Shown: piece by piece, positions 9,656 through 62,961 of the stretch | How positions within the stretch are numbered: position 1 is the stretch's first letter | How the letters are laid out: the number at the start of each line of letters is the position of its first letter | NCBI RefSeq assembly: GCF_003576645.1 | Contig: NC_044930.1 | Span: forward strand, 21,648,515 to 21,712,514 | Source of the DNA: Ipomoea triloba | Lineage: Eukaryota > Streptophyta > Magnoliopsida > Solanales > Convolvulaceae | DNA: 64,000 nucleotides | Direction of reading: 5' to 3' | The notes under the pieces: model-generated | Seen by the model: only the letters and a program-made list of their open reading frames with translations | Told to the model about the DNA's origin: nothing | Databases searched by the model: none | Position numbers and translations under genes: made by a program

Positions 9656-9706
9656 TACAGTTTCAATTTAGGTTTTGTATATGTGTTGTATTTTTATTAT
9701 ATAACA

Positions 9707-11783: not shown

Positions 11784-11788
11784 AAACT

Positions 11789-14728: not shown

Positions 14729-16338
14729 NATCCTGAGGCTTGACGCGGGCTTGGTGATCAAAGGTCAAGTGCTCGAGAGGTGGAGTAACAAGAAGCGGGG
14801 CGAAAAACCTGAGGCTTGAGGCGGGCTTCGTGATCAAAGCTCAAGCGCTCGATATTGTACTAAAAAAAAGGGAAGTTTTTTTTTAGTGCAATCTTTCCAG
14901 GGAGTTTCTGGAAGAAGAGTGGACGTAGGCGGGTTGGCCGAACCACTTAAAAATCTCTCTTGCATTTACTTACTGCTTTTATCTCTCGCTAACCTCTCGA
15001 TTGCACTGCATATAAACGCACTTCTCAAACTAACTTAAACTCGTGCTAACTAAAAGGGGATAACATTTCCGCTGCGCATAAAACTTTGTCTTCACCTCGT
15101 GAGGTATCAAACCTAAACATCCTAAGTTCAATACACACGAGAGGTTGAAAAGATTTGCAAAATCTTATACAAGTCTATTCACCCCCCCTCTAGACTTGTA
15201 CCCCATCCCCTTGGGACCAACAAAACTTCTAGATCGACTTTCGGGTGTCCTTTGAAGCGATTGAAAACCTCTCGATGAGAGATAACTTGAGGTCAATCAA
15301 CGCTATCTCTTCTACTATACCTCCAAATTGAGTCGGGCTTCAAGGGTTAGCCCTCGAGTGCCTTTTTATGACCTTTAGGTTGGAATTTGTGGATTCAAGA
15401 TTGGCCACGGGTTCAAATAGCGTCTGTCTCAAGATTGGGTTGACCCCTCTGCCTTCAATCTCTACACTTGGAAACTTGGGCTTTGCCAATAAGGGAAGGC
15501 GTAGCTTATATGTTACCAAGGCTAGGGTTTTGCCAAAAAGGGGCTTTTCTTTTTCGATGATGACTGATGAGTGAGGTTGAAACCCATATTAAAGATTTAG
15601 CTTTTCTTGGCCAAGACTCATGCTCATCTAATTGAGTGTTTGGCATATTCTTGGCCAAGCCTCGAGTTTTGAAAAGAATGAGTACTTACTGAGCATCGAC
15701 CGGGTTGGCCGAGTTCAGTCTCTACTCGATTCGAGACATGGTGTTGCGATTTAATTACCATAGAAGGATGTGGTTAAATGGTTAATGTCCACCTACTTAT
15801 CACCAATTAATTTTAAGTAGACTATGACAACCAAATAACCAAAGAATTTCGTGGTTAAGAAAATTTTTTTTCCCAAACATTCATATATTTTTTCATTGTA
15901 TAAAATTACTGAAAGCTAAGCTTAATCCCCTAACATGTGACCCATAATTTTAATTAACCAGAAATTTCTCTCACTTTCTAAAATGGGTCCCACTTATACA
16001 TCATAAAATTTACAAATTTTTCTACATTCCTGCAATATTCTCTCACTCTCAAAAGTGGTCCACATTTATATTATATAATAAATATAATAACCAAATAACA
16101 TAATAAATACTCCGTAACTAATAAGAAATGAAAAAAAAGTACACAAAGCTGCCGTGCAATAGCCTTTGTCAGATTTGGGCATGCTTTTTCTTCTTTTTCT
16201 CATTCTCTCTCCTATTTCTAATTTAGCAATTCTCTCTCCCCTTGAAAATACACATGGCATTAAATAATAATAAAAAACCCACCTAGATTAGAAAGAGAAG
16301 GGATTTGCTGGGATGGGGTTAGCCATAGGACCTATCTA
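14729..16338 (+). other. Assembly duplicate of 13120-14728
   Basis: An isolated n at 14729 is followed by 1,609 bases that repeat 13120-14728 (offset 1610) with no difference noticed, apart from a few bases at the minisatellite start. The sequence then continues past the point where the first copy ended. This looks like the overlap of two contigs placed end to end. The paired open frames 13758/15368 and 14456/16066 are one locus each. Confidence 0.9.
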
Positions 16339-17700: not shown

Positions 17701-19735
17701 AAAGATCAATCAAAATTCGCAGTTTTCCTCCTCATTTTACCTTAATTTGAGGAGGAGAACTGTGAATTATGATCGATCTTAGAGCTTAAAATTCCTATTT
17801 TTTTTAAAAAAAAAATTAGCATATTCCTCAGTTGTATTATCTCATATTACAATAGCAACTAGGTTCAAAAATTAGGAATACAACTCTTTACTTTAGAGTA
17901 TCTCATATAAAGAGTTAATTTAGAAATGGCAAATGGAATGCATTATGACTTTAAAAATATAATTATGTTCCTTCTTAAAATTTGCCTTATTCAGTTCTAC
18001 GTCTTAATTGCACATGTATATAGAATTTAAAGTAAGAATTATGAATTATCTATATTTATATATAATAACTATATAAGCTAAAGTGTTATTTTTATTTTAA
18101 ACTATAATTAAAGATTAGAGTTATCAATAATTATATATGTAGTTAATTAAAAGTAATTTTTTTTGTACTTAGGTAATCCTAATTATGCAGGACTAATTCT
18201 TGCCCAAGGGGCAAGGGACCATGTTCCTAGAATTAAAAGTAATTTTTTGTTGGTAGTTATGTATGTTATAGATGGAGAAGTATTTTAAACGAAAAACAAC
18301 ATTTGATTAGTTAAATAGTACGGTGCGCAATAAATAAAGATATTTATCAAAAAATGTAATTTATATTTGTGTTTCTATGTCATTAAAAATAATAGTTTGT
18401 ACTAAATTACTGTATTGACACCACTAAATTACAATCCTGCTCCCGCCACGGTCAAATGCCATGCATCTAGTTGTATTATATGTATGCTTCAATTCAGGTT
18501 ATATATATGTCCTTGATTTTCATCCGTTTTTGTGCATTAAAAAAATACGCATTATACTTCAAATGTTGTGTGTAGTGTGTTTATTATATAAAATTATTCT
18601 TATTATAATTTGTTGGACAAAATTGCCCTTAGACTATTGTAATTAACTCTATTATCATTTAATGAATTCTGAACGAGTAAATTAAAAATGATAATACACC
18701 CTTATAATTACCATATATATTGTTGAGACAATTAATTAACCCTTTAAATGATTTTGTACCAAAAATTGTAACTATCATTTTCATTTTTAATATAAATAGA
18801 ATAGAATTTTCTCAATATAAATAGAAAATAAAGACAATAATTAATGATTCCAATATAATATAGATTGTATGACTTTATTATCGAATCTTTTTTCATTTAT
18901 GATTATTATATTGATGGAATAAATTAAAACGAGGTCATTAATAACCGATTTCAAATGTCAAACAAGAATCAAAGAATACAAAGAAAACCCAAGAATAAGT
19001 GTGTAATTGCTCATGTATTACAAGAATGCATGTTAGAATAGGACAAAGAGCATTCATTAGAAGAGAATGCAGAATTCACTATTTAAACTAGCTTCTCTAA
19101 CCCTGAGGCTAGGGTCAGTCTTCAGGTACTCATTCACTCAAATTGTGTTGTTGGCTCTCTGCTTTGGATCCTAGGTAGGCCTCTAAATTCCCTTCAACTT
19201 GATTGGCAACCTCGAGGTCCACTTGAGTAGGCTTAGTATTGTGAGCCATATATATTTTTCACTGAATAAAATTACTGAAAGCTAAGCATAATCCCCTAAC
19301 ATGTGAACCATACTTTTAATTAATTCTTTGCTCTAACTTGCATTCTAAATATAAAAAAGACTCCAAAACAACAAGAATGGGATTTAGGACCTATCTAATC
19401 ACAACTCGAAATCATAGGATTCAATTCTAATCAAAACCGGAGTGGAAACCAACACAAATATCATCTACCTTCCTCAAAAAATTACAACTTTCCATTGATC
19501 AACTCTGATTGTACCCCAGTGTAATCGGTTGCAGAGGCTCTATCATCAGCATTACTCGCCAATGGAGCATTAATCACCTTAATTCTCACCCCCCATTACC
19601 CATCATCTTCTTTGTGCTCTTTGCCACCATTTTCTGCTTCTTCCGAACCACATTCCCACCATCCGCAACCTTCAACCCTGATCTGCACAAACCCTGCACA
19701 TAAAAACTTACCTATCCGCCGGTTTTTGCGGCCTT
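17700..19735 (+). repeat. Block copy 3, truncated
   Basis: The copy begins with the AACTGTGAATTATGATCGATC segment (also at about 51690), includes the 18050-19080 section in the usual order and the short form of the middle segment (19090-19250), and breaks off within the J-protein pseudogene at about 19735. The 61-75-residue open frames here are chance frames in AT-rich DNA. Confidence 0.8.
19436..19733 (-). pseudogene. J-domain protein pseudogene, C-terminal fragment, copy 3
   Basis: The minus strand contains the C-terminal lysine-rich region and a short stretch equivalent to the CAGFVQIRVEGCGG segment of other copies, with the intervening 100 bp missing. Similarity ends at about 19733. Confidence 0.65.
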
Positions 19736-20929
19736 TAAATCTAACTTTTGACATCGTTAAAGAAAATTTACCTTAACAATAGTGCAATCTTATAAACTAT
19801 CATTGTCAATGGTAATTCTACATCTGCAAGATATTGAGAAACAATAAATTAAGGTTATCAAATTTTTACTACAAGTAAAATTTAAGAAAATAATATTGAA
19901 AAAGTTATTGTATAACCTTCAAATAATTGAATGATAATCCTTTTAATTTTTTTTGGTATTCATTATCTATTTTTTAATTGGCAAATATAAAATAATCACA
20001 ATTTTCATTTTCTCTTTCTTTATTAAAATGTTAATTATTAATATATTGGAAACTATACTTATGTCTTTCATTAAGTAATATAAAAGATATAAAAAAATTA
20101 TTGTGATATCTGGAAATGTCTAATCTTTTGTAATATTTAGTGGTATGATGACTTACTCTGGGCCATGTATCCTCTCCGGTAGGCTATCGAAATCGGGATC
20201 AAAATAGGGAGAACAAACCTGGTTCATGCTGCAATCTACAAGTTGGAAAAGAAAAAAAGAAAAAAAAAATTATTACAACAATATACATACCTCCATAATC
20301 ATGTGCCAATTGACCTTAACTTTTGAACCTATGGACTTTTAAAGGATTACACTGCACTTATTATATGATTACACCGCACCCAAATATGCCTCTAGGCATG
20401 TCTGGCCGTAACGGTGCAATCATGTAATAGTTGCCATGCAATGCTTTTGAATTTTGAATATTATTGTTGCCTATTGGAATCTTTTGGCATATGGTTTATT
20501 ATTTACAAGTAATTTATTAAATTCTTAATTATTCATTATGTTTTTTCGTTTTAATATTTGTATATAGAAATGATATATTAGAGATTTTAAAATTTTCATA
20601 GGAATGCTTAAACAAACCAAACATCTTAATTAATTTTTAGCGCAGTTATTCACTTATTCTCAACAAATACATTCTTTGAAAATATTTTCTAAGGAATTTA
20701 ATTGATGAGAAAGTACCAAACGCCAATAGCGAGCCACATTAAGGAGAGGTGTCAATTGACAATTTGACACCACTAAAAAATTTTAACTTATTACCTATAT
20801 TTTTTTTTTTGAGAAAGGTTAAAATTGACACCACTCAAATATATATAATTGGGGTCAACATATAAATAAAAAATTATAATACTCCAAACATAATTATAAA
20901 AAATTATAAAATTGAGGAATTGTAAAATT
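19736..20929. other. Non-coding spacer, AT-rich
   Basis: No open frame or recognised domain was found. The part from about 20440 to 20740 matches 44260-44390 and 46720-46945, so it belongs to the spacer between blocks. Positions 20155-20260 are less AT-rich but match nothing I recognise. A small inverted-repeat element interrupts at about 20743. Confidence 0.6.
20743..20850. mobile_element. Small inverted-repeat insertion
   Basis: Compared with the parallel site at 46940-46960, about 110 bp are inserted here. The ends read GAGGTGTCAATT and, inverted, GAGTGGTGTCAATTTTAACC, with an inner phrase TTTGACACCAC. It looks like a very short MITE or fold-back. The target duplication could not be defined. 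Confidence 0.4.
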
Positions 20930-21823
20930 CGTTTTTTTTTTAAATAGCATTTTCCTCAGTTATATTATCTCATATTACAATAGCAACTAGGTTGTAAAAT
21001 TAGGAATACAACTCTTTACTTTAGAGTATCTTAATTTCTTCTATAACATTATTAAATTTTATATTAGATTAGATTAAGAAGGTAGAAGTTTATAGGTGTT
21101 AATTACTTCTTTAATTTTCTTTTTATTAATTTTATCTTGAAGTTAGTATGATTATTGTATGAAATCTATAAAGAGTTAATTTATTAATGGCAAATGAAAT
21201 GCATTATGACTTTAAAATTATAATTATATTCCTTCATAAAATTTGTCTTATTCAGTTGTACGTCTTAATTGCACATGTATATAGAAATTAAAGTAAGAAT
21301 TATGAATTATCTATATTTATATATAATTACTATATAAGCTAATTAAAGTGTTATTTTTATTTTAAACTATAATTAAAGATTATAGTTATCAATAATTATA
21401 TATTTAGTTAATTAAAAGTAATTTTTTTGTAATTATGTAATCCTAATTTTGCAAGACTAATTCTTACCCATGGAGCAAGGGACCATGTTCCTAGAATTAA
21501 AAGTAATTTTTTTTGTTGTTAGTTATCTATGTAATAGATGGATGGGAAGTATTTTAAATGAAAAACAACACTTGATTAGTTAAATAGTACAGTGCGCAAT
21601 AAATAAAGATATTTATCAATAAATGTAATTTGTATTTGTGTTTCTATGTCATTAAAAAAAAAAATATTTTGTATTAAATTAGTGCATTGACACCACTAAA
21701 TTACAATCCTGGCTTCGCCATTGTCAAACGCCATCTAAATGTATTATATGTATGTTTCAATTCAGGTTATATATATGTCCTTTATTTTCATCCCTTTTGT
21801 GCATTAAAAAAGTACGCATTATA

Positions 21824-22261
21824 TCATGGGATTTGGATGGGTGTTGCGTTATGAGGATGGCCGATTTTTGGCGGCGAAGAGCATGCATGTTATGGAAAAT
21901 TACCCAGTAAAGGAAGTCGAAGTTGTCTGTATTCGCGAGGCCCTGAGTTGGTTGAAGGGCACGGGACTGGGAGATATTGATGTTTAGACAGACTCCCAAC
22001 TAGTTTATTTTGCTTTATGTTCTGAATCTTTTTATTCTAATTTTGGTTTTATTATTGACGATGTAAAGAATTTGGCATCCACGATTAGTGGGGTTGAATT
22101 GCGTTTTGCTAAGCGATCTGCGAATCGTGATGCCCACACTATTGCTCGGGAAGCTATTTCTGAGTCAGGTTGCGGGGAATGGTTTAATTCCCCTCCTTCG
22201 TTTCTTGTTGATTGTCTTATTCTAATTTAATGCATTAAGTTCTTCTTCTAAAAAAAAAAAT
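21824..22261 (+). mobile_element. 5'-truncated LINE with RNase H domain
   Basis: The only coding content is a plant LINE-type RNase H (RVT_3) domain. It starts at GFGWVLRYEDGRFLAAKS, continues through VEVVCIREALSWL and TDSQLVYF, and ends with SANRDAHTIAREA, so the D-E-D-D positions are recognisable. One TAG interrupts it just before TDSQ. A 3' poly(A) (22250-22260) precedes the repeat of the 12-bp flank GTACGCATTATA (21812-21823 and 22262-22273). Other block copies have this site once (for example near 52498). This is a typical L1-clade insertion truncated during reverse transcription. It is not a functional gene. Confidence 0.9.
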
Positions 22262-23106
22262 GTACGCATTATACTTCAAATGTATGTTGTGTGTTGTGTT
22301 TTTATTATGTAAAATTACTCTTAATGTAATTTGTTGGACAAAATTGCCCTTAGACTATTGTAATTAACTCTAATTATCATTTAATTTAATGAATTCTAAA
22401 TGAGTAAATTAAAAATGATAATACACCCTTATAATTACCATATATATTGTGGAGACAATTAATTAACCCTTTAAATGATTTTGTACCAAAAATTTTAACT
22501 ATCATTTTCATTTTTAATATAAATAGAATTTTCTCAATATAAATAGAAATATAAAGACAATAATTAATGATTCCAATATAATATAGATTGTATGACTTTA
22601 TTGAATCTTTTTTTTATTTATGACTATTATATTGATGGAATAAATTAAAACGAGGTCATTATTAACCGATTTCAAATGTCAAACAAGAACCAAAGAATAC
22701 AAAGAAAACACAAGAACAATTGTGTAATTGCTCATGTATTACAAGAATGCATGTTAGAATAGGACAAAGAGCATTCATTAAAAAAAATGAAGAATCCACT
22801 ATTTAAACTAGCTTCTCTAACCACTTCCCCGTTAATAGCGCCCTACAAAACTCAGTCTTTGTCTAACTGACATGTGGACTTGCCCGGAGGTTGGCCTGAG
22901 AAGCCGACCCCACCGACGAAGCACATTCATGGCCTCCGCTTCCTATGTCATAGCCAGCCCAGGTCATCACCAACCCTAGGACTGGAAACCGACATGACTT
23001 ATTGACCTCCACTTCTTTAGATGGCTTTTGGTTGATCTGAGTCTCTCGAGTCCAACTTTGAGCTCATGCCTAACCAACCTGAATTCCCAACTCGCTCAAC
23101 CCCAAG

Positions 23107-23347
23107 CAGGGCCGGTTTTATGATTTGCAGGGCCCTGTGCTAATAACTAAGTGAGGCCCTATCAAAGTATAAATAAACTGCGAATTGAAGAAAAACTGCA
23201 AAGAGAAAAATGCAAAAAAACCTAATTTTGAGCCAATATAATCACAAATACATATACTAACTATTAGGCGAGCGCTGGACTAGGGGCCCCCAAAATTTCG
23301 GGGCCCTGTGCGGTCGCACGTCTTGCACTCCCTAAAATCCGGCCCAG
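23107..23347. mobile_element. hAT-type MITE, 241 bp
   Basis: The ends are CAGGGCCGGTTTTA and the complement of CTGGGCCGGATTTTA, flanked by the perfect 8-bp duplication ACCCCAAG (23099-23106 and 23348-23355). The uninterrupted site is seen near 59200. An 8-bp TSD and CAGGG-type TIRs are diagnostic of the hAT superfamily. The interior has no coding sequence. Confidence 0.92.
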
Positions 23348-23619
23348 ACCCCAAGGACAACCCTTAGTTCGCATGTTTCACATGAGGTCCGCATCATATC
23401 AGCCCCACTGCCTAAGATGTAATAATTTGACAGACATATATTGTTTCATTATATAAAATTACTGAAAGCTAAGCTTAATCCCCTAACATGTGAACCATAC
23501 TTTTAATTAATTCTCTGCTGTAACCTGCATTCTAAATATCAGAAAGACTCCAAAACAACAAGAATGGGATTTAGGACCTATCTAATCACAACTCGAAATC
23601 ATAGGATTCAATTCTATTC

Positions 23620-24272
23620 AAAAACGGGGTGAAAACCAACACAAATATCATCTACCTTCCTAAAAAAACTACAACTTTCTGTTGATCAACTCTTATTCTA
23701 CCCCAGTGTAATCGGTTGCAGATCAGAGGCTCTATCATCAGCAGTACTCTCCAATGGAGCAGCATTAATCACCTTAATTCTCACCGTACCCCCTTACCCA
23801 TCATCTTCTTTGTGCTCTTTGCCACAATTTTCTGCTTCTTCCGAACCACATTGCCACCATCAGTCTCCATATCACTGCCATTTCCACCGCAACCTTCAAC
23901 CCTGATCTGCACAAACCCTGCACATAGACACCACATCCGCTGGCTTCTGCATTTCTCATTCCAACACCTCATGCAACACTCTCTGAAAACTATAGGATAC
24001 TCGTACACATAGTAGCAGTAGGGACACATAGTCTCCGACCCGCTTCAAAATTTCGGATTCATTTTCAGCTCCTCGTCGAACAGAGCTCTCTGTGCCGGCA
24101 CAGAAAGCACTAACTACGCGTCAATGATGAGCCTATACGCCTCTTCCGCTCAAGCAAAGTGTTTCTCCCTAGGGCTTAAAATGGCATACAGTTTTTCGGG
24201 GTTTTAATCAGGTCAAAATCTCACGTAAAGTGAGGGACGCCGAGTATTGAAGGGTGGATTCTCCCGCGAGGC
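23620..24272 (-). pseudogene. J-domain (DnaJ-like) protein pseudogene, copy 4
   Basis: From about 24272 downward the minus strand encodes the J-like domain with degenerate HPD site, ALSVPAQRALFDEELN, then MCPYCYYVYEYPIVFRECCM, SWTPF-related sequence (partly deleted) and the lysine-rich tail VVRKKQKIVAKSTKKMMGKG. A TGA in the J domain and further shifts break it. The first of these stops is shared by every copy that keeps the region. Confidence 0.8.
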
Positions 24273-24589
24273 CTATTATGGACAGCCCTTCATGGGATTG
24301 GATCCCAACCAAGGAAAAGCGACCTTGGGGGAGACCGTCTATTGCACACAAGAGATGTTCTCCAGTTTTTCACCAAACATTAAAAAAAAATATGGAATTA
24401 AATTTAATACGTCAATAGTATAGTGAGCAATTGTATAATAATATGCACCATAATCAAATACATATAATTATTATATAATCATTGCATTGATTAGTTATGA
24501 TTAATTGTATGATAATTTAGTAAGTAAAAAAATTTATTAGACAATAATAATGAAAAATATAAATTGATCAATAGTTCATTCTATATTAT

Positions 24590-24745
24590 TTAAACGGTTA
24601 AGTTCACGGTATAAATTGTCACGAATGTAATATTTAGCCGACCACGATAGATATTTTTAACATGACAGTTATCAATAACTAACATTTGTACAACATTGTC
24701 TTCTACATTGAATAAGATCATATAATTTGTTTGTGCAATTTTTTT
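24590..24745 (-). pseudogene. Inverted B3-like fragment B, copy in block 4
   Basis: The sequence is the reverse complement of 17230-17390 (VILFNVEDNVVQMLVI, then NCHVKNIYPWSAKYYI), truncated on its 5' coding side at about 24745 where a poly-A-rich stretch begins. Confidence 0.6.
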
Positions 24746-24839
24746 TTACCGTTAAAAAAAAAACAACGAGAAGAGGGACGGAATAACTATTTGTTACCGT
24801 AAAAAAAAAAAAAAGAACGAGAAGAGGGTCAGAATTACG

Positions 24840-25108
24840 GAACTTACCCACAAGAGTCGGACTACTTGAGCCCGACTATTATAAGAGTCGGACAAAAGTA
24901 GTCCGACTGTCAAGTACTTCGCAAAAAAAAAAAAAAAAAAAAGCATATTTAGAGTTTTTTTTTTTTTTTTTGTGGAAAAGTCATACTTCCATTCTCGGTC
25001 ATTTTCTTGTTTTTTTATTCTTTTTAGCCGGATCTTTAATATTTTTTAAAAAAATATATAATAGAAACGGACTATTTGACGAGAGACGGACTACTAGAGT
25101 CCGACTGT
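24840..25108. repeat. GTCGGACT-rich segment
   Basis: The 8-mer GTCGGACT and its complement AGTCCGAC recur in both orientations about seven times, separated by A- and T-rich runs (24860-24920 and 25070-25108). The same segment appears at 54700-54985 and 61890-62170. Clustered short motifs in both orientations resemble subterminal transposase-binding repeats, but no element ends are visible. There is no gene. Confidence 0.55.
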
Positions 25109-25129
25109 CACTACAAAAAATTAATTGTT

Positions 25130-25210
25130 TAGCGACATATACTTAGCGGCGGTTATATATAACCGCCTCTAAATAACTATTTTGAGGCGGTTATAAAAAC
25201 CGCCCCTAAT
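25130..25210. repeat. Left subterminal GCGGTT/AACCGCC repeats of the CACTA element
   Basis: Pairs such as GGCGGTTATATATAACCGCC form short palindromes close to the left end. In CACTA elements such arrays bind the transposase (TNPA-like). Confidence 0.85.
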
Positions 25211-25339
25211 TTAATATGCAAATCTAAATAATTAATTTTTAGCAATAATTACTTGATACAATTCATCATAATTGCCACTAAATCTCTTTTTAAAAAATTA
25301 TTTCTAGTTATATTGTATTTATATATTCTCTAAACACTT

Positions 25340-25625
25340 AAAGTCGCAGCAGCGGACACCGCAGAATCGGACGTCCGACGACGCCTCCCCTGACCTCCCC
25401 TGCGTTGACGACGACGGTGACGCCTCCCCTGACCTTCACTGCAAGGCTACGACGACACTACAGACTCGAATGCTGCCTTCCGCCGCTTGCCCGCTCGCCC
25501 GCCCTCCCGCCCTCCTCTACGACAGATATAGAAGAAAAATCTCGACTTCTGGATTTCCAGTTGGAAGACCCGGCTGAGTGTGAGGCAGAGGTGTTTGGTC
25601 GCGGAGGAGTGAGTCCACCCAGGCT
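25340..25625 (+). pseudogene. Captured GC-rich first-exon-like fragment
   Basis: This is a GC-rich island in AT-rich DNA, open in one frame from 25405 (MTTTVTPPLTFTARLRRHYR... to EVFGRGGVSPPRL), ending at a GTAAGT donor-like site at 25626. It looks like a plant 5' UTR plus first exon, probably captured with its promoter. I do not recognise the protein. A small exon-like piece at 25814-25871, with AG and GTAAGA borders, follows. Confidence 0.45.
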
Positions 25626-26429
25626 GTAAGTCTATTGTATGTCTTCAATCTTTGTTTCGCGTCTATGTGATTTCGACTAGTTGCGATGTAGTGATGTGAA
25701 GGATTCGAGAAATCTAGGGTTTATTGTTGAGCTTAATGAAACAGCTTTCTTTTAATTATTTGTCTAATTCATTTATAATTGACCTAATGTACTTATGTAA
25801 CTTACATGTGTAGTTATCTTTGCTTGTTCACCCGGATTTGCAAGCATCTACAAGCAAAAGAGGCTTTGGTGGTAAGAAATGTGTTTTTCTCCCACTCATT
25901 TCATAAAATTGTAATTGTGATTATTTTTTTTAGTGAAAGGGCCTCTTCAATTAACTGAGTTTATGCCTCTTTCTCCTGATTAGGGGTGAAAGTTGACAAT
26001 ACAGGTTTTCCTGATTATTTTGTTCATTTGTTAACATACTTCAACTGATAATTTGAGGTTGCATTATCTGCATTTAGTGTAATGCTACATAATTTTTGTT
26101 CAAAAATCAACCATTTTAAGAAAGGCAGGGGTAGATTGGGGATGCATTTGAGGGATTTGATGGGCATTTCAGTGAAAACGAAGTGATAAATCTGTTCTTG
26201 AACAAGTTAAAATAGATGATTTTATTTATAGAGTGCTTTTTAGCTTACACGATCTTAAGTCAAGATGATGATTATTACTACGGAGAATTATTTAGTATCT
26301 GCAAAACCAGGGGATAGAAATTTCGTCACTATCCATATATTCGTATAGATATCTGTTTGGGAATTCTACATTTATTCATGGATTTACCAATCTGACAATG
26401 GGAGTATTTATCATGCTAAAACTTAACAG

Positions 26430-26566
26430 GGCTTGTGAAACTGCATCATGCTGTAAAGACTTGTGAGTATGAAGATGTTCATACCCTGTGGGAAATAGTG
26501 AAGAGATATGATAAAGAGATGGCCAGATCTTCATCATCGTGCAAAAGACGACAACGTTGGAATATG
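26430..26566 (+). pseudogene. Captured exon of unrecognised gene
   Basis: The exon is bounded by CAG at 26427-26429 and a GTAT donor at 26567. It encodes GLVKLHHAVKTCEYEDVHTL, then WEIVKRYDKEMARSSSSCKR, with no stop. The charged, regular sequence looks like a real plant exon, but I cannot name the family. The open frame continues through a short intron-like stretch into the RHD3-like exon, so a chimeric product is conceivable. Confidence 0.45.
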
Positions 26567-26614
26567 GTATATCTCACATTTAACTCTGTAAATTGTGTTT
26601 TTTTTCCCATGAAA

Positions 26615-27679
26615 GTGGCTAACCTAAGACAACGGTTCTTTCACTCTATTGAACCTCGCGGGCTTGATGGAGATAGGAGGGCAGTTGTTCCTGCTTCAGG
26701 TTTTTCATTTAGTGCACAGCAAATATGGAAAATTATAAAAGAAAACAAGGATCTTGATCTTCACAAGGTTATTACCTACAAATCTAGCATGAATTTTCTA
26801 GTTAAGTATTTTTCTAGTTTCTTGGTGATATATATGATTGTGTGGTATAAATAAAGGTTATGGTGGCCACTGTAGGATGTGAAGAAATTTTCAATGAAAA
26901 ATATACTGCTTTTTCTGCAAATGAGGTATATTTACTTAATTTTGGAATGATTTAGTTAAATGCATTGTGCTCCCATTGTTTCCGCTAAACTAAAGAACAT
27001 CATTATTATTTAATTTTAATGTGATCATATCATAGAAATGGTGTTGACCAGAGACAGAAGTAAGAGTGGCAAAAGAAAAGTGTTGGAAGAGAAATTGTTG
27101 CATGTAATGTTGGCTCAGAACACTAAAGTTTTTGCTATTTACACATGGATGCCATAGGCCCAAATGTTATGTCCATTTAGTATTCTTCTAATTTCAAAAG
27201 CAACGGGTCACTTATCACCACCCCCACCCCACCCCCACCCCCCCGCGCGTTTAGAATTGTAATTTATAACTATATTATGTTATTTTCAAATATCAAAGCT
27301 TTAGAGCAGTCCATCTTCCCCTATCACACTCTCAGAACTTGCTCTAATAAATCAGTTCAATAATATTTACTATCTTCTTGATAGGATATATTTGTTCTGG
27401 ATTGGTATATCTATCTTTTTCAAAAATAATTTTTGAGAAGGAGCTGATGAGAACGTCATAGAGAAATACAGTTCCAAGAGTGATATATTGGTGTTTTCTT
27501 TTTTGCTACATGCCGGTTCTTCATGATGTTATTCTTTTCTTATGTTGTAGCTTGTCCAATCGGCCTACCAATCCATGCTAGGACATGTACGATCTAAGGC
27601 TATGGAAAAATTCAAAGAAATGTTCAATAATGTATTGAATGGAGGGAAGGGCTTTGCCGTGGTTGCTTCTGAGTGCAGT
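26615..27679 (+). pseudogene. RHD3: Captured RHD3 (atlastin-like ER GTPase) exon fragments
   Basis: Three exon-like pieces match the middle domain of ROOT HAIR DEFECTIVE 3, a membrane-anchored dynamin-like GTPase that fuses ER tubules. They are 26615-26767 (VANLRQRFFHSIEPRGLDGD ... VVPASGFSFSAQQIWKIIKE ... NKDLDLHK), 26856-26925 (VMVATVGCEEIFNEKYTAFS) and 27551-27679 (LVQSAYQSMLGHVRSKAMEK ... NNVLNGGKGFAVVAS). A decayed exon may lie near 27038. Introns keep GT/AG-like borders. The N-terminal GTP-binding domain and C-terminal membrane anchors are absent, so it is a captured fragment with no RHD3 activity. Stops and shifts occur between pieces. Confidence 0.88.
27215..27247 (+). repeat. C-rich simple repeat
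   Basis: A tract of CCACCCC-type repeats ends in CCGCGCG, inside an intron-like part of the CACTA element. Confidence 0.9.
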
Positions 27680-27778
27680 GAGTCTTGTTTTAAAATTGAT
27701 CAGTTCCATAATTTTTTAAAATTCTTTCGTCGCCTATAATTGACTCTGAAACTTGTGCTGATGAGTGCTACATTGCAG

Positions 27779-27907
27779 GTTGAAGACTTTGTGTTTGGCG
27801 GAAGAATTTTTCACTCCTTAAACTATGATGGTGAATTTGCAATTCCCTTGGGAGAAGATGGAAACATTGCTTCATTGAAGGCTACTTTTGAAGCTTTGGC
27901 TGGGTGA
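27779..27907 (+). pseudogene. Captured terminal-exon-like fragment, unrecognised
   Basis: After an intron-like TTGCAG border the frame reads VEDFVFGGRIFHSLNYDGEF, then AIPLGEDGNIASLKATFEAL, and ends with TGA at 27905-27907. It is open, of ordinary composition, and does not resemble RHD3, so it comes from another gene. I cannot identify it. Confidence 0.4.
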
Positions 27908-28224
27908 ATCAAATGCCTCTAGTTCCCAATTGCTAGTTCCTAATTGAGCAACAGCTCCTGCATCTTGCTCAGCTTCGTGTATTCATTCATTGTGTTGTAT
28001 TCATTGTCATGCTTTCCTGCATTGCATCTGCTCAGCTTCGTGTATTTGAAGAATAGTGTTTTGTGATTGCAAATATTATTTGACAAATATTAATTACAAT
28101 TGATTTTCTTTCCAATTAAATGTGTACATAGAGTTTATTTGTGATTGCAATACGTATTTGAATATATAGATTTTTGAAGAAATATAATTAAATGATAATT
28201 GTAAAAACATAATAATGTAATTAT

Positions 28225-28565
28225 AAAATATTTAGCGACGCTTAAATAATCGCCTCTAATATTTTTAAAAATAAATAAAAAATATTTAGCGACACGTAAT
28301 AACCGCCACTAAGATTTAAATGAACAAATAAATAGATATATTTAGAGGCGGTTTTGAAACCGCCGCTAAAAGCAAAAGTAAAACACATCACTTTTAGAGG
28401 CGGTTATAAAATCGCCGCTAAATGCAATGCGATCAAGAATTCCCACACTTGTCTAAAACCGCCTCTAAATCCTTCGCGACACACTATTTAGACACGGTTG
28501 AAGAACCGCCTCTAAACAACTTAGTGGCGGTTGTAAACCGCCTCTAAATAATAAATTAACCGCCT
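28225..28565. repeat. Right subterminal repeats of the CACTA element
   Basis: More than ten copies of TTTAGAGGCGGTT and its complement AACCGCCTCTAAA lie in both orientations, ending about 25 bp before the right terminus. They are the counterpart of the left-end repeats. Confidence 0.9.
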
Positions 28566-28592
28566 CTAAGAAACCTTTTTGGTGTAGTGTGT

Positions 28593-29046: not shown

Positions 29047-29309
29047 TGGTCTGATGAGACCGGAATGCAACAAATAAATGATCCATTAAAAGTTTCGAGT
29101 GGCCCGGTAACAAGATCTAAGTCAAGGAAGATTCAAGAGGCTTTTAACACTTTTGTGCAAACAGATTGGAGTCCAACATCTTTTTGTGAAGAAGAAGATC
29201 AATCTGAAAAATAATTCTATTCAATTGTCTTCACATAAAAACTTTTGAAGACAATTCAGACTTCAGTATCAGATCAAATTTTCCGGTGTGAAATTATTTG
29301 CAAGGTGTA

Positions 29310-29510
29310 TTTTTTTAGGTGGGAAACTACTTTGCAAGAATTGTATTTTTTATTTTTGGGTGGAAATTACTTTTGCAAAATGTTGTATTTTTAATTTTGG
29401 GTGGGAAATTATTTTGTATTTTAATTTTGGGTGGGGAATTATTTTGTATTTTTAATTTTGGATGGGAATTACTTTTACAAAGTTGTAATTTTATTTTGGG
29501 TGGGATTAGT
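29310..29510 (+). repeat. Imperfect tandem repeats in the LTR
   Basis: About five units contain TTTTGGGTGGGAAATTA followed by TTTTGTATTTTTAA or TTTTGCAAAATTGTA. The parallel array in the 3' LTR is at 35900-36100. The LGG/LF-rich open frames 29319-29546 and 35911-36138 are produced by the repeat and are not a gene. Confidence 0.85.
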
Positions 29511-29540
29511 GACCTAGAATATTTAATACCTTATTTTCCC

Positions 29541-29549
29541 CTATAAATA
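29541..29549 (+). promoter_or_regulatory. TATA box of the 5' LTR promoter
   Basis: CTATAAATA lies near the middle of the LTR, downstream of the tandem repeats, where the U3/R boundary of a plant LTR promoter is expected. The same box is at 36133-36141 in the 3' LTR. Confidence 0.6.
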
Positions 29550-30009
29550 CCCCATAAACCCAATGGTTTGAGACACACCTTGTAAGAATTCAATTTGAGT
29601 GAAATTTCTCTCTTTTCTTTGCATGAGAAGTGCATTGAAGTTTTAGGTTGTTTGTGAGAAGCAATCAATCTTGGTAGGCTAGTGAGAAGCTAGTTTATCC
29701 CCCCCTTATCTTGTTCTTTATATTCACACACATATCCAAAAACCCAAAAAGAATACTATTACTCATATTATATAGCTAATTTTATTTTTGTATCTTAATT
29801 CTAGTGCTAGATTCCTAGTACTCTAATTCTTAGCTTGCTTAATAATCTAAGGGTTGAGAGTATTATTTGTTAGTTTGGTCAGACATTTGTAGAGTTGGGA
29901 TCTCAAAATCCAAGAGTCTACAAGGTAAGATCCTCTTTTGGACACGAAAGGTTCTTGAGTGATTCCTTGAGTGTGCACTTATTGCGGGAAGCAATCCGTG
30001 TACGCATCA

Positions 30010-30470
30010 NNNNNNNNNNNNNNNNNNNNNNNNNNNNNNNNNNNNNNNNNNNNNNNNNNNNNNNNNNNNNNNNNNNNNNNNNNNNNNNNNNNNNNNNNNN
30101 NNNNNNNNNNNNNNNNNNNNNNNNNNNNNNNNNNNNNNNNNNNNNNNNNNNNNNNNNNNNNNNNNNNNNNNNNNNNNNNNNNNNNNNNNNNNNNNNNNNN
30201 NNNNNNNNNNNNNNNNNNNNNNNNNNNNNNNNNNNNNNNNNNNNNNNNNNNNNNNNNNNNNNNNNNNNNNNNNNNNNNNNNNNNNNNNNNNNNNNNNNNN
30301 NNNNNNNNNNNNNNNNNNNNNNNNNNNNNNNNNNNNNNNNNNNNNNNNNNNNNNNNNNNNNNNNNNNNNNNNNNNNNNNNNNNNNNNNNNNNNNNNNNNN
30401 NNNNNNNNNNNNNNNNNNNNNNNNNNNNNNNNNNNNNNNNNNNNNNNNNNNNNNNNNNNNNNNNNNNNNN
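30010..30470. other. Assembly gap of 461 N
   Basis: This gap lies immediately after the 5' LTR. It hides the primer-binding site and part of the leader. The long open frames spanning it (29895-30627) are artefacts of translating N. A run of about 18 A follows the gap. Confidence 0.98.
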
Positions 30471-30784
30471 AAAAAAAAAAAAAAAAAACCACCTGTGTCA
30501 GTTTCAAACACACTCTGTGTTAGTTTCTACATCACTCTGTACATGCTATTTCCTACCTTTCGTGCTTACTAGACTCAAACTATACAAGTGTTTGGTTTGT
30601 TGTTTGTGGTGGATACAACCCTTGTGAATTTTAAGCTTTGTTAAGGACCAAGAGGAAAAGAACTAGTACTTGAGAAAAAAAAAAAGTCAAAAAAAAGAAA
30701 AGAGTGAATGAACTATGAATGATTAAATATTTCCTTTTGATTACTATCTTCTTATTTTTGCATTTTTTTTTTTTACTTAAAGGA

Positions 30785-31100
30785 ATGTCAAGTATGGCTA
30801 GTACTAGTGAACAAGGTAGTATTATTGCCCAAATGGAGAAAATGATGACCATGATGAAAGTCCTGGATTAAGAAGAACAACGAGAGAACATCTTCTATGG
30901 CAAATGCAAGATTCCCGGTGCTACATGCAGTTTCATCATTGATGGGGGNTTTTTTTTTTTACTTAAAGGAATGTCAAGTATGGCTAGTACTAGTGAACAA
31001 GGTAGTATTATTGCCCAAATGGAGAAAATGATGACCATGATGAAAGTCCTGGATTAAGAAGAACAACGAGAGAACATCTTCTATGGCAAATGCAAGATTC
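30785..31100 (+). pseudogene. Gag remnant fused to protease (contains assembly duplicate)
   Basis: The frame begins MSSMASTSEQGSIIAQMEKM and continues briefly to a TAA, then runs on into ...EEQRENIFYGKCKIPGATC, which is the sequence just before the gypsy protease. Capsid, nucleocapsid and zinc knuckle are absent, so several hundred codons of gag have been lost. Positions 30950-31134 repeat 30764-30948 after the n at 30949 and are an assembly duplicate. Confidence 0.75.
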
Positions 31101-31134
31101 CCGGTGCTACATGCAGTTTCATCATTGATGGGGG
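30949..31134 (+). other. Assembly duplicate of 30764-30948
   Basis: A single n at 30949 is followed by a repeat of the preceding 185 bases (offset 186), with no difference noticed. Sequence then continues normally. Same signature as at 14729, 33719, 41401 and 44391. Confidence 0.92.
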
Positions 31135-31525
31135 GAGTTGTACCAATGTGATCAGCGAGGATGTAGTTAATGCAATGAAAATACCAACAATCCAACATCC
31201 TCAACCCTATAAGCTACAATGGCTTAATGATGATGGTGAACTAAAGGTACACAAACAAGCCCTCATTTCTATTTCCATTGGAAAATATCAAGATGATGTG
31301 TTATGTGATGTGATCCCAATGCATGCTTGTCACATCTTGCTTGGTCGGCCATGGCAATATGACCGAGACACCTTACACCATGGTAAAACAAATAAGTACA
31401 CCATTCATAAGGGAGGTAAGAAGTATACTTTGACTCTACTAGCACCAAAAGAAGTGTACAACCTACAAGTAATTGAGAGAAGAACTTGCCCAAAAGGCAA
31501 AAGAGGCCATGAAGGAAGCCACTAG
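31100..31525 (+). pseudogene. Gypsy retropepsin domain
   Basis: The frame reads CSFIIDGGSCTNVISEDVV, with the Asp of the retropepsin active site in a DGG context, and VIPMHACHILLGRPWQYDRD (the ILLGRPW flap-distal motif). It normally matures Gag-Pol. The frame shifts relative to RT at about 31472-31480, so a continuous polyprotein is not encoded. Confidence 0.88.
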
Positions 31526-32986
31526 TGGAAAACAAAAGACCATAGCTCATGAGAAGAACCAAAGAAAGGAAGGGATGAAGAAGGACACTACGCAATCATC
31601 TCATAATTTGCTCATGACAAAGGGAGAAGTGGAGCAAGCCTTAAGAAGCGGAGAAGGAGTTTTCTTACTTTACCCGATTGATTTTTGTTTAAATTTTATT
31701 AAAAGTGAAATTATCCCTTCTGATGTTTCTGCTTTGCTTTCTAAATTTGCAGATGTCTTTCCCGAAGAGTTACCAAAGGGGTTACCTCCAATTCGTGAGA
31801 TTGAGCATCAAATTGATCTCATACCTGGAGCACGTTTGCCTAATAGACCAGCATATCGCACCAATCCCAACGAGTCCAAAGAGATTCAACGTCAAGTTGA
31901 TGAGTTGTTACAAGCTGGATTCATCCAAGAAAGCCTTATCCCATGTGCTGTACCCGTACTACTTGTACCAAAGAAAGATGGCACGTGGCGGATGTGTGTT
32001 GATTGTCGCGCCATCAATAACATCACGGTAAAGTATCGCTATCCTATTCCTAGGTTAGATGATATGCTTGATGAATTGCATGGGGCTGAAATTTTCAGTA
32101 AAATAGATCTAAGAAGAGGTTATCATCAAATTAGAATGCAAAAGGGAGATGAATGGAAAACTGCCTTCAAGACTAAAAATGGTCTCTATGAACGGTTAGT
32201 TATGCCATTTGGATTAACAAATGCCCTAGCACCTTCATGAGATTGATGAACCATGTTCTTAGGAATTTTATTGGAAAATTTGTTGTTGTGTATTTTGATG
32301 ATATTCTCATTTACAGCAAAGACCCTCAAAAGCATATAATACATCTTAAAGAAGTCTTTCTTGTTTTAAGAAGAGAACAATTGTATGCTAACCTTGAGAA
32401 ATGCTATTTTGGTGTGGAAAGTGTTGTTTTTCTTGGTTTTATAGTAAGTTCTAAAGGCATTGAAGTGGATGAGACCAAGATACAAGCAATTCGAGATTGG
32501 CCAACACCAAAAACAGCAACTGAAGTCCGTAGTTTCCATGGTCTTGCCAGTTTCTATAGGAGATTTGTCAAGGACTTCAGTACAATTGCGGCCCCGTTGA
32601 ATGAACTTGTGAAAAAAGATGTTAAATTTGAATGGGGCTCTAAACAAGAACAAGCCTTTCAAACCCTCAAGGAAAAATTGTGTTCTGCTCAGGTACTTTC
32701 GTTACCAAACTTTGATAAAACTTTTGAGATTGAGTGTGATGCATCTGGGATAGGTATTGGAGCTGTTCTTATGCAAGAAGGACATCCTATTGCCTACTTT
32801 AGTGAGAAATTAAGTGGTCCTGCACTTAATTACTCTACATATGATAAGGAGTTATATGCACTTGTAAGAACTCTTGAGACCTGGGAGCATTACCTATGGT
32901 TTAAAGAGTTTGTCATACACTCCGATCATGAGGCACTCAAACACCTTAGGGGGCAAGGTAAGTTAAGCAAGAGACATGCGAAATAG
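31473..32986 (+). pseudogene. Gypsy reverse transcriptase and RNase H
   Basis: From about 31700 the frame shows the RT domain: LPNRPAYRTNP, VLLVPKKDGTWRMCVDCRAI, IDLRRGYHQIR and MPFGLTNA. A one-base deletion at about 32222-32226 shifts the frame. The second part (from 32237) continues with the catalytic box [13 protein letters not shown], then [14 protein letters not shown], and RNase H ([20 protein letters not shown], later [13 protein letters not shown]). A TAG at 32984-32986 sits where the family has Trp. The enzyme copied the element RNA in virus-like particles; here it is disrupted. Confidence 0.93.
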
Positions 32987-33718
32987 CTTGAGTTTATTGA
33001 AGCATTTCCGTATGTTATCAAGTATAAACAAGGTAAGGAAAACCGAGTGGCTGATGCTTTATCTCGAAGGTATGCTCTACTTTCATCATTACAAGCCAAA
33101 TTACTTGGTTTTGAATTTCTTAAAGAATTGTATAGTAATGATGTTGATTTTGCAGAAAAATATAAGGCATGTTCTACAACTCCAATTGGCAAATATTATC
33201 TACTTGATGGATATTTGTTCAAAGAAAATAGATTGTGTGTGCCAAATTGTTCTTTAAGAGAAATGTTCATTAAGGAAGCCCATAGTGGTGGATTAATGGG
33301 ACACATCTGTGTGACTAAAACTTATGAAGTCCTACATGGACACTTCTTTTGGCCCAAGTTAAGAAGGGATGTGGAATTGTTTGTTAGAAAATGTGTTACT
33401 TGCAAACAAGCTAAATCACGATCTCTCCCACAAGGGTTATAAACACCATTAATTGTTCCTAAGGAACCCTGGACTGATTTATCTATGGATTTTATAGTAG
33501 GGTTACCTAGAAGTAGAAGGGGCCATGACTCAATCTATGTTGTTGTTGATCGATTTAGTAAAATGGCTCATTTTATTGGTTGTCACAAAACTAATGATGC
33601 CTCTCATATTGCAGATTTATTCTTCAAAGAGGTAGTGCGTTTACATGGGATTCCACGCACCATTGTGTCCGATCGAGATGCCAAGTTTCTAAGTCATTTT
33701 TAGCGAATACTTTGGGGA
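32987..33718 (+). pseudogene. Gypsy integrase, N-terminal and core part
   Basis: After the RNase H end ([15 protein letters not shown]) comes the integrase HHCC finger ([10 protein letters not shown] ... [16 protein letters not shown]), closed by TAA at 33440-33442. The core follows with [19 protein letters not shown] and the second Asp in IVSDRDAKF, closed by TAG at 33701-33703. The frame continues at 35014 once the duplicated stretch is removed. Confidence 0.92.
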
Positions 33719-35013
33719 NTGTTTTTCTTGGTTTTATAGTAAGTTCTAAAGGCATTGAAGTGGATGAGACCAAGATACAAGCAATTCGAGATTGGCCAAC
33801 ACCAAAAACAGCAACTGAAGTCCGTAGTTTCCATGGTCTTGCCAGTTTCTATAGGAGATTTGTCAAGGACTTCAGTACAATTGCGGCCCCGTTGAATGAA
33901 CTTGTGAAAAAAGATGTTAAATTTGAATGGGGCTCTAAACAAGAACAAGCCTTTCAAACCCTCAAGGAAAAATTGTGTTCTGCTCAGGTACTTTCGTTAC
34001 CAAACTTTGATAAAACTTTTGAGATTGAGTGTGATGCATCTGGGATAGGTATTGGAGCTGTTCTTATGCAAGAAGGACATCCTATTGCCTACTTTAGTGA
34101 GAAATTAAGTGGTCCTGCACTTAATTACTCTACATATGATAAGGAGTTATATGCACTTGTAAGAACTCTTGAGACCTGGGAGCATTACCTATGGTTTAAA
34201 GAGTTTGTCATACACTCCGATCATGAGGCACTCAAACACCTTAGGGGGCAAGGTAAGTTAAGCAAGAGACATGCGAAATAGCTTGAGTTTATTGAAGCAT
34301 TTCCGTATGTTATCAAGTATAAACAAGGTAAGGAAAACCGAGTGGCTGATGCTTTATCTCGAAGGTATGCTCTACTTTCATCATTACAAGCCAAATTACT
34401 TGGTTTTGAATTTCTTAAAGAATTGTATAGTAATGATGTTGATTTTGCAGAAAAATATAAGGCATGTTCTACAACTCCAATTGGCAAATATTATCTACTT
34501 GATGGATATTTGTTCAAAGAAAATAGATTGTGTGTGCCAAATTGTTCTTTAAGAGAAATGTTCATTAAGGAAGCCCATAGTGGTGGATTAATGGGACACA
34601 TCTGTGTGACTAAAACTTATGAAGTCCTACATGGACACTTCTTTTGGCCCAAGTTAAGAAGGGATGTGGAATTGTTTGTTAGAAAATGTGTTACTTGCAA
34701 ACAAGCTAAATCACGATCTCTCCCACAAGGGTTATAAACACCATTAATTGTTCCTAAGGAACCCTGGACTGATTTATCTATGGATTTTATAGTAGGGTTA
34801 CCTAGAAGTAGAAGGGGCCATGACTCAATCTATGTTGTTGTTGATCGATTTAGTAAAATGGCTCATTTTATTGGTTGTCACAAAACTAATGATGCCTCTC
34901 ATATTGCAGATTTATTCTTCAAAGAGGTAGTGCGTTTACATGGGATTCCACGCACCATTGTGTCCGATCGAGATGCCAAGTTTCTAAGTCATTTTTAGCG
35001 AATACTTTGGGGA
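33719..35013 (+). other. Assembly duplicate of 32425-33718
   Basis: A single n at 33719 is followed by 1,294 bases that repeat 32425-33718 (offset 1295), including all stops. The frames at 33712-34281, 34342-34737 and 34780-34998 are therefore second readings of the same RNase H/integrase sequence. The joint falls in mid-integrase, and the integrase reads on correctly only across the collapsed join. Confidence 0.96.
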
Positions 35014-35883
35014 AAGCTTGGTACAAAACTTTTGTACTCTACTGCTTGTCATCCACAGACAGATGGCCAAACCGAAGTTGTGAATAGAACTCTAACACAA
35101 CTTCTAAGGGTAGTCATTAGAAAAAACCTCAAGTCTTGGGAAGAAAGTTTACCATATGTGGAGTTTGCTTATAACCGAGCTATACATTCCACTACAAATA
35201 TGTCACCATTTGAGGTTGCTTATGGTTTTAATCCATTAACCCCCTTAAATTTGATTCCCTTACATGTGAATGATAAGGAATGTGTGGATGCTGCTAAGAA
35301 AGCTCAAGGGATTCGTGAATTTCATTCCAAGGTTCGAGCTCAAATTGAAAAGAAAAATGAGCAATACGCTCAAAAGGCCAACAAGGGACGCAAGGCAATA
35401 ATTTTTAAACCCGGAGATTGGGTTTGGATCCACTACAGCAAAAACAGATTTCCAAACCAACGCAAGTCCAAGTTGATGCCTCGAGGAGAAGGACCTTTCC
35501 AAGTGCTTGAAAGAATCAATGACAATGCATACAAATTAGATCTTCGAGGTGAGCATAGTGTTTCTTCTACATTTAATGTTGCTGATTTAGCTCCTTTTGA
35601 ATTTTCAAATTCGGGGACGAATCTTTTTCAAGAAGGGGAGGATGATGAGACCGGAATGCAACAAATAAATGATCCATTAAAAGTTTCGAGTGGCCCGGTA
35701 ACAAGGTCTAAGTCAAGGAAGATTCAAGAGGCTTTTAACACTTTTGTGCAAACAGATTGGAGTCCAACATCTTTTTGTGAAGAAGAAGATCAATCTGGAA
35801 AAATAATTCTATTCAATTGTCTTCACATAAAAACTTTTGAAGACAATTCAGACTTCAGTATCAAATCAAATTTCCCGGTGTGA
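35014..35883 (+). pseudogene. Gypsy integrase C-terminal part, running into the 3' LTR
   Basis: The frame has TACHPQTDGQTEVVNRTL with the catalytic Glu, PFEVAYGFNPLTPL, and the GPY/F-like module (KSKLMPRGEGPFQVLERIND, FNVADLAPFEF). It then crosses into the 3' LTR at 35643 and adds GPVTRSKSRKIQEAFNTFVQ and an acidic tail, with a stop just before 35884. About 80 codons thus lie in the LTR, and the same codons open the 5' LTR at 29052. No chromodomain was seen. Overlap of pol with the 3' LTR is known from CRM-type elements. Confidence 0.88.
35629..35642 (+). other. Polypurine tract of the gypsy element
   Basis: AAGAAGGGGAGGA lies directly before the TG of the 3' LTR, where plus-strand synthesis is primed. 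Here it also codes for pol residues. Confidence 0.8.
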
Positions 35884-36602
35884 AATTATTTGCAAGGTGT
35901 ATTTTTTTAGGTGGGAAACTACTTTGCAAGAATTGTATTTTTTATTTTTGGGTGGAAATTACTTTTGCAAAATGTTGTATTTTTAATTTTGAGTGGGAAA
36001 TTATTTTGTATTTTAATTTTGGGTGGGGAATTATTTTGTATTTTTAATTTTGGATGGGAATTACTTTTACAAAGTTGTAATTTTATTTTGGGTGGGATTA
36101 GTGACCTAGAATATTTAATACCTTATTTTCTCCTATAAATACCCCATAAACCCAATGGTTTGAGACACACCTTGTAAGAATTCAATTTGAGTGAAATTTC
36201 TCTCTTTTCTTTGCATGAGAAGTGCATTGAAGTTTTAGGTTGTTTGTGAGAAGCAATCAATCTTGGTAGGCTAGTGAGAAGCTAGTTTATCCCCCCATTA
36301 TCTTGTTCTTTATATTCACACACATATCCAAAAACCCAAAAAGAATACTATTACTCATATTATATAGCTAATTTTATTTTTGTATCTTAATTCTAGTGCT
36401 AGATTCCTAATACTCTAATTCTTAGCCTTGCTTAATAATCTAAGGGTTGAGAGTATTATTTGTTAGTTTGGTCAGACATTTGTAGAGTTGGGATCTCAAA
36501 ATACAAGAGTCTACAAGGTAAAATCCTCTTTTGGACACGAAAGGTTCTTAAGTGATTCCTTGAGTGTGCACTTATTGCGGGAAGCAATCCGTGTACGCAT
36601 CA
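35643..36602 (+). repeat. 3' LTR of the gypsy element
   Basis: The 960-bp LTR is nearly identical to 29052-30009 (about a dozen differences by eye, including two one-base indels). It ends CGCATCA, followed by the TSD TGGTC at 36603-36607. Confidence 0.94.
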
Positions 36603-39212: not shown

Positions 39213-39330
39213 TTATGTTTGGTGAAAAATAGTCTCCTTGAGACCGTCCTCTTGTTTGCAATAGACGGTCGCCCTGAGGTGCTTTTCCCTGGTTGGGATC
39301 CAATCCCATGAAGGGCTATTTTGGGATCTG
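39213..39330 (+). pseudogene. Upstream end of J-protein pseudogene, inverted copy
   Basis: The plus strand here corresponds to the minus strand at 61430-61540, including GGATCCAATCCCATGAAGGG. Similarity ends around 39335, before the J domain. Confidence 0.5.
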
Positions 39331-54454: not shown

Positions 54455-54595
54455 CATATAGATTGTCACGAATGTAATATTTAGCCGATCAGGGATAGAT
54501 ATTTTCAACATGACAGTTACCAATAACTAACATTTGAGTAACATTATCTTCTACATTGAATAAGATCATATCATCTGTTTGTGTGATTTTTTTGT
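54455..54595 (-). pseudogene. Inverted B3-like fragment B, copy in block 6
   Basis: Reverse complement of the VEDNVVQMLVI-coding stretch, more diverged than the other copies. Confidence 0.55.
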
Positions 54596-54699: not shown

Positions 54700-54985
54700 A
54701 CGGAACTTACCGATAAGAGTCAGATTACTTGAGCCCGGCTATTATAAGAGTCGGACAAAAGTAGTCCAACTGTCAAGTACTTCGCGCAAAAAAAAAAAAA
54801 AAAAAAAAAAACAGCATATTTAGAGATTATTTTTTGCAGAAAAGTCATACTTCCATTCTCGGTCATTTTCTTGTTTTTATTGTTTTTACCCGGATCTTTA
54901 ATATTATTTTAAGAAATATATAATAGAAACGGACTATTTGAGGCCGACTATCACGAGAGACGGACTACTAGAGTCCGACTGTATG
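54700..54985. repeat. GTCGGACT-rich segment, copy in block 6
   Basis: Parallel to 24840-25108. Here the segment runs directly into ATGGTTGTTTAGTAAG, giving the empty site for the CACTA insertion. Confidence 0.55.
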
Positions 54986-61889: not shown

Positions 61890-62170
61890 CAGAACTTACC
61901 GATAAGAGTCGGATTACTTGAGCCCGGCTATTATAAGAGTCAGACAAAAGTAGTCTGACTGTCAAGTACTTCGCACAAAAAAAAAAAAAAAAAAAACCTG
62001 CATATTTAGAGATTTTTTTTGCAGAAAAGTCATACTTCCATTCTCCGTCATTTTCTTGTTTTTTATTGTTTTTACCCGGATCTTTAATATTATTTTAAAA
62101 AATATATAATAGAAACGGACTATCTGAGGCCGACTATCACAAGAGACGGACTACTAGAGTCCGACTGTAT
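61890..62170. repeat. GTCGGACT-rich segment, copy in block 7
   Basis: Third copy of the segment at 24840-25108. It again runs directly into the uninterrupted CACTA target. Confidence 0.55.
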
Positions 62171-62960: not shown

Positions 62961-62961
62961 C

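Follow-up and report, generated by a model that had tools for sequence, protein, structure and literature searches.

The window analysed here, 64,000 nucleotides of Ipomoea triloba DNA, contains a non-autonomous CACTA element whose components are listed in Table 1. The element starts with CACTACAAAAAA and finishes with TTTTTGGTGTAGTG, with TGT on either side, and its termini, CACTACA at 25109 and TGTAGTG at 28589, form a perfect inverted match of 7 bp. The motif GCGGTT or AACCGC occurs four times in the first 300 bp and nine times in the last 450 bp, in both orientations, and is absent from the middle 2731 bp; direct repeats are no longer than 35 nt among 20 listed of the 21 repeat families. 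The flanks are part of a repeated host unit with several copies in the window, and self-BLAST within the window identifies two paralogous sites from which the element is absent. The left flank stops at 25108, equivalent to 54982 and 62168, and the right flank begins at 28590, equivalent to 54980 and 62166, the two flanks overlapping by the 3-bp TGT at both sites. Compared with the flanks of the element, the empty sites are 80–86% identical on the left and 86–92% on the right, with a joint that has no extra or missing base. The initial annotation had described CACTA ends and a 3-bp TGT target-site duplication (TSD), which are confirmed to the base, subterminal GCGGTT repeats, which do cluster at the two ends, and pre-insertion sites at about 54980 and 62165, which prove to carry one TGT each. 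A Helitron or LTR origin is ruled out because the ends, TSD and empty sites all match a CACTA element. The single TGT at both sites is also what precise excision would leave; however, the sites are paralogues joined without gain or loss of a base, and a single insertion that followed duplication would be more probable than two precise losses. Excision is thus highly improbable, and both sites are read as the state before insertion.

Table 1. Components of the CACTA element and its empty sites (positions in the window; C numbers denote contigs of the assembly)
Feature	Position	Strand	Remarks
Whole non-autonomous CACTA element	25109..28589	+	3481 bp
Left target-site duplication TGT	25106..25108	.	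ends/flank comparison
5' terminal and subterminal region (CACTACAAAAAA, GCGGTT motifs)	25109..25339	+	first ~175 bp common to family
GC-rich stretch	25398..25626	+	76% match on C9:14890669
111-bp piece	25629..25739	+	93% to C4:29911737-29911849
J-domain (DnaJ) gene piece	25757..25956	+	92% to C4:34723217-34723422; exon 25814-25871, AG/GT borders, frame broken
Piece related to C8 gene	25977..26600	+	C8:4165098-4165774, 84% overall, 92% over 221 bp round exon; exon 26430-26566
RHD3 piece 1	26598..27061	+	exons 26616-26767 and 26857-26925, introns, start of third exon; 93.8% to C2 gene
RHD3 piece 2	27060..27690	+	third-exon remainder to 27103, intron, exon from 27551; 91.5% to C2 gene
Last cargo piece	27690..28073	+	exon 27779-27903 (VEDFVFGG...)
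3' subterminal and terminal region (GCGGTT motifs, ...CCTTTTTGGTGTAGTG)	28074..28589	+	common to family
Right target-site duplication TGT	28590..28592	.	ends/flank comparison
Empty site 1, single TGT	54980..54982	.	flank self-BLAST
Empty site 2, single TGT	62166..62168	.	flank self-BLAST

The surroundings are rich in repeats. Repeated host units, ~77–96% alike, lie at 1–2228, 9682–11789, 17705–25108 and 49060–63676 of the window, and on the minus strand near 61047–61367 the translation resembles, as judged by eye, a decayed J-domain-type protein. Only one of the two empty-site copies carries a 400-bp insert, at 55102–55502; this insert matches its own reverse complement (79%) and may be a fold-back element. 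A Gypsy-type LTR retrotransposon (29052–36602, long repeats 98.75% identical) starts 463 bp past the right end of the CACTA element and includes an exact 1294-bp duplication (32425–33718 and 33720–35013) that may be an assembly fault. The near-exact (99.9%) tandem duplications at 39172–46723 (2.2–2.3 kb) and 13122–16338 (1.6 kb) reflect either recent duplication or an assembly artefact.

Genome searches covered the 462-Mb assembly of 17 contigs (C1, C2 and so on), the focal element lying on C15. Its first 392 bp match at least 40 places, itself included, among the best 40 of 81 candidates. Thirty-five of the 39 other places were examined, with both ends called by similarity and independently of the TSD; both ends are present at 22 of these loci, and at 13 of the 35 the opposite end was not found within the examined stretch. 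A perfect 3-bp TSD of its own borders 19 of the 22 two-ended relatives, with no matching TSD at L009, L021 and L039, while a control that pairs the left flank of one element with the right flank of another gives a TSD match in 16 of 462 combinations. CACTACA starts and TGTAGTG finishes are kept in 21 of the 22, the ends of L039 being changed, and GCGGTT occurs one to three times in the interior of three. The search for same-end copies that the initial annotation had proposed thus finds many of them elsewhere, most with their own TSD; the absence of any other element with these ends, which it had named as contrary evidence, is not observed.

The reported lack of a transposase also holds: Pfam searches of four pieces of the element detect none, and the longest listed frame in 25340–28230 is 144 aa and non-transposase. 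A genome search for Transposase_21 returns at least 156 matches with the best 150 of 352 candidates scored. Matches fall inside three of the 5'-end loci, L041 and L040 on C12 and L015 on C13 (two matches), which are matched to the family by their 5' end only. The L041 frame of 671 aa contains Transposase_21 (E 1e-98) and Transpos_assoc (E 5e-20), and a 138-bp relic of this gene, 92.8–94.2% identical, is found in all five members of one group of relatives (cargo set E, below). The element would be moved by a transposase of the tnp2 type that relatives sharing its 5' end provide in trans, and these three loci are candidates for such relatives.

Part of the cargo derives from a ROOT HAIR DEFECTIVE 3 (RHD3) gene. 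The joined RHD3 exons match PF05879 (E 6e-14) and PF20428 (E 1e-8) in Pfam; against the sequences of solved structures, these exons have no match at E 0.001. In a protein search of the genome, host RHD3 genes fall on C2, C11 and C10; cargo copies on C15 (the focal element), C7, C6 and C3 (two) and at C11:18.34M give RHD3 matches of their own. Sequence comparison makes the C2 gene the probable donor of both RHD3 pieces, and the C11 and C10 genes are excluded at 80% and 77% identity versus 93.8%. Aligned as the initial annotation had suggested, the C2 gene matches through exons and introns alike; because the cargo copies contain introns, it was DNA and not mRNA that was captured. The RHD3 exon fragments that it had recognised are therefore real, as judged by Pfam and by 91–94% DNA identity with a host gene, and protein and DNA searches both find RHD3 similarity at 26615–27679. 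As limits, those positions do not stand: RHD3-derived DNA covers 26598–27690, and 647 bp of donor sequence are missing between the two pieces, whose junction lies inside an exon. An ordinary host gene at this site is ruled out by the empty sites together with the RHD3 genes elsewhere. A 6-bp, in-frame loss of two codons in RHD3 exon A is common to the focal and C7 copies and absent from the C6 copy and the donor, and the acceptor context of exon A reads AAAG in the focal copy versus AAGG in the donor. Six alignments link the C2 gene with an I. trifida RHD3 protein that represents a cluster of eight; four reach 84–97%, the other two are lower, and no alignment is at 100%. Weak RHD3 matches (53–64% identity) also form an inverted pair at C2:20159582–20160739.

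Pieces of other genes with GT/AG borders had also been claimed, and three such exons are indeed present in the cargo, one of them from a J-domain gene. Together with its introns, the J-domain exon matches C4:34.72M, a host locus with two exons that, when joined, encode a DnaJ domain (PF00226, E 5e-9). The C8:4.165M locus has an open frame at the matching exon. On sequence grounds, the J-domain gene on C4 and the C8 gene are probable donors beside RHD3; since the C8 gene is 84% identical over its length, the actual donor may have been a paralogue of this gene. The place on C4 that matches the 111-bp piece (29.91M, 93%) is counted as a further probable donor. For the last cargo exon, two open frames, one of 506 aa on C16 and one of 503 aa on C7, give distant matches (74% and 71% over 31 residues). 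Its DNA donor was not found in the genome, where only cargo copies, L032 and distant relatives matched. L032 itself is rejected as the donor: it starts with the family 5' end (altered to CACTAAA), matches at 83% and has a broken frame, and therefore reads as an older relative. Pfam names neither the two unlabelled exons nor their host relatives (FRQ, at E 0.02, misses its cut-off), three Ipomoea chimeras are all that is retrieved when the parents of these two exons are sought by a padded protein search, and solved-structure searches with the cargo pieces gave nothing usable.

All-against-all comparison reveals that the relatives have common ends and largely different interiors, forming about eight cargo sets. 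Set A comprises the focal element, L009, L011, a C3 copy and the deletion derivative L013; set B, L012 and L023, with L012 additionally containing the first 673 bp of A; set C, L017, L018 and L021, of which L014 shares about a quarter; set D, L019 and L020; set E, L022, L028, L042, L043 and L044; and set F, L029, L030 and L036. L016 and L039 carry further separate sets. Between certain sets (C and D; D, E, F, L016 and L039), the overlap is roughly 5–25%. Among pieces of seven relatives searched with Pfam, L029 contains a kinesin motor (E 2e-10), and matches below the cut-off are an RHD3 exon in L014 (E 5e-6), SNF2 in L012 (E 5e-5) and a transposase-associated relic in L022 (E 2.5e-5); the pieces of L018 and L019 have no match, and the best for L016 is at E 0.09. 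The C3 copy of cargo A (L026/L010, C3:8354414–8359760, 5347 bp) has several internal tandem duplications and stops in its C8-type exon. More cargo-A pieces occur at C11:18.34M, C13:2.75M and C1:19.76M, the C11 copy matching the focal element from 26180 onward only and lying outside the 5'-end matches listed.

The element has CACTA terminal inverted repeats, a 3-bp TSD and subterminal repeats in both orientations, as CACTA (En/Spm) elements do, and it has captured host coding DNA and lacks a transposase, as Pack-CACTA elements do. It is almost certainly a Pack-CACTA, with genomic pieces from about four host places between intact ends; three of these places, the RHD3, J-domain and C8 genes, are gene-like. 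As read from the sequences, its history is one of capture at the DNA level from about four places followed by amplification onto several chromosomes. Outside gaps, the focal copy is 99.45% identical to the C7 copy and 98.3% to the C6 copy, and its patchwork recurs in sister copies at 98–99% identity. Since the copies are this similar to each other and 91–94% identical to the RHD3 donor, assembly of the patchwork probably long preceded the spread of the latest copies. Capture would have been stepwise, either by neighbouring insertions transposing as one unit or by repair of excision gaps. Chimeric mRNAs, spliced at the captured splice sites, would also be transcribed from the element.

One intron of the RHD3 gene may bear on this process. 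Positions 2709–3079 of L014 carry the C2 RHD3 stretch directly upstream of the focal piece, corresponding to donor bases 32–392 at 93.3% DNA identity, which confirms the RHD3 exon of L014, and the focal line begins at donor base 409 (408 in L011). The two breakpoints thus fall in one intron, ~16 bp apart, near C2:795691–795708, and such proximity is unlikely if the captures were independent. It is possible, and we put it forward tentatively, that recombination later split a single captured segment between two elements, or that a CACTA element once sat in the intron and both sides were taken up by different new elements. The second case would make the intron a fossil of the neighbouring-insertion capture model.

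The cargo also has counterparts in protein databases. The best six protein matches include three from Ipomoea batatas, one from Cuscuta and one from Musa, with more from I. batatas and I. trifida below. Six Ipomoea proteins (I. batatas/I. trifida) named RHD3 homologue or RHD3-like repeat the cross-gene fusions of the cargo, joining the C8-type exon to RHD3 (P0003, P0072), a 5' piece to the C8-type exon and RHD3 (P0008, P0031), a 5' piece to the J-domain and RHD3 (P0004), or RHD3 to the last exon (P0043). In a seventh protein, P0001, only the RHD3 exons of the cargo occur. Together with the retained GT/AG borders and the in-frame loss in exon A, these proteins would suit a chimeric protein-coding host gene, the "RHD3-like" gene of databases, lying by chance between repeats. 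However, all four full-cargo copies with examined ends (focal, C7, C6 and C3) sit between CACTA ends, and the J-domain frame is broken in the aligned copies, with stops in the C3 copies. The focal and C6 copies differ at 10 of 684 exon sites (1.5%) and 41 of 2201 other cargo sites (1.9%), too few changes to show constraint. A host gene is accordingly very improbable next to a Pack-CACTA. The cargo here most likely does not encode a working protein, because its pieces are short and come from unrelated genes, the J-domain frame is broken, an RHD3 exon is fused by deletion and an acceptor context is altered. Ipomoea protein sets thus appear to list transposon chimeras as "ROOT HAIR DEFECTIVE 3-like", and such entries should be taken as a warning.

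The captured pieces could instead matter as RNA. Chimeric transcripts are described, in the parts of the sources covered here, for soybean Tgm-Express1 (PMC1947982) and for the I. nil Tpn1 element in DFR-B (PMC5105172), and donor identity of 91–94% over hundreds of bases would suit small or chimeric RNAs touching the RHD3 and J-domain parents. The two RHD3 pieces run in the same direction, however, and therefore form no RHD3 hairpin; such a role, which is compatible with the Pack-CACTA reading, seems rather unlikely.

Catoni in 2019 and Gisby and Catoni in 2022 reportedly treat Pack-CACTA elements in Arabidopsis and further plants. The sections covered of two papers describe such elements with CACTACA ends, no transposase and coding DNA from several loci, and sister elements with the same ends and differing interiors (PMC8903248, PMC13317346); Pack-TYPE gene capture is described there in Arabidopsis, rice and maize (PMC8903248). 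The focal element resembles them in its ends, missing transposase and multi-locus cargo, and differs in host and cargo. Tgm-Express1, according to the portion consulted, is a 5.7-kb soybean CACTA element with exon and intron pieces of five host genes whose splice sites are used (PMC1947982); it sits inside a working gene with splicing demonstrated, whereas the focal element is known here from DNA sequence. Chenopodium CACTA elements are likewise described as capturing genes and as having common ends with changing interiors.

The closest parallel is the Tpn1 family of Ipomoea nil. In the part of PMC5105172 covered, its non-autonomous members keep their ends and subterminal repeats and have interiors exchanged for host genic DNA, TSDs are 3 bp, terminal inverted repeats are 28 bp, and transposase-bearing members are few and have 122/104-bp subterminal tandem repeats. 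Gene capture in Tpn1 is also mentioned in the covered part of PMC8195511, citing Kawasaki and Nitasaka 2004. The focal element is similar in genus, conserved ends, captured interiors and TSD length, and differs in its 7-bp perfect inverted match and short GCGGTT motifs, as compared with the description of Tpn1 alone. A sweet-potato transposon survey counts CACTA elements in transcripts, and the part of it covered does not treat the focal element (PMC3946583). Among titles and the starts of abstracts on CACTA or Pack-CACTA and Ipomoea or Ipomoea trifida, none describes it, and no paper was found pairing ROOT HAIR DEFECTIVE 3 with CACTA, both searches lying mostly outside subscription journals. 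The initial annotation was right that CACTA gene capture is known in plants, and this extends to Ipomoea itself. Its suggestion that the element may be undescribed applies to the RHD3-carrying instance and not to the kind, which is known in Ipomoea from the Tpn1 family.

The focal element is a well-documented further example of behaviour already known in the genus and not a new kind. Many of its steps are readable from empty site, element, sister copies, same-5'-end transposase loci and donors with introns. The split RHD3 intron, the one observation here that is possibly new on mechanism, could test how CACTA elements acquire DNA.
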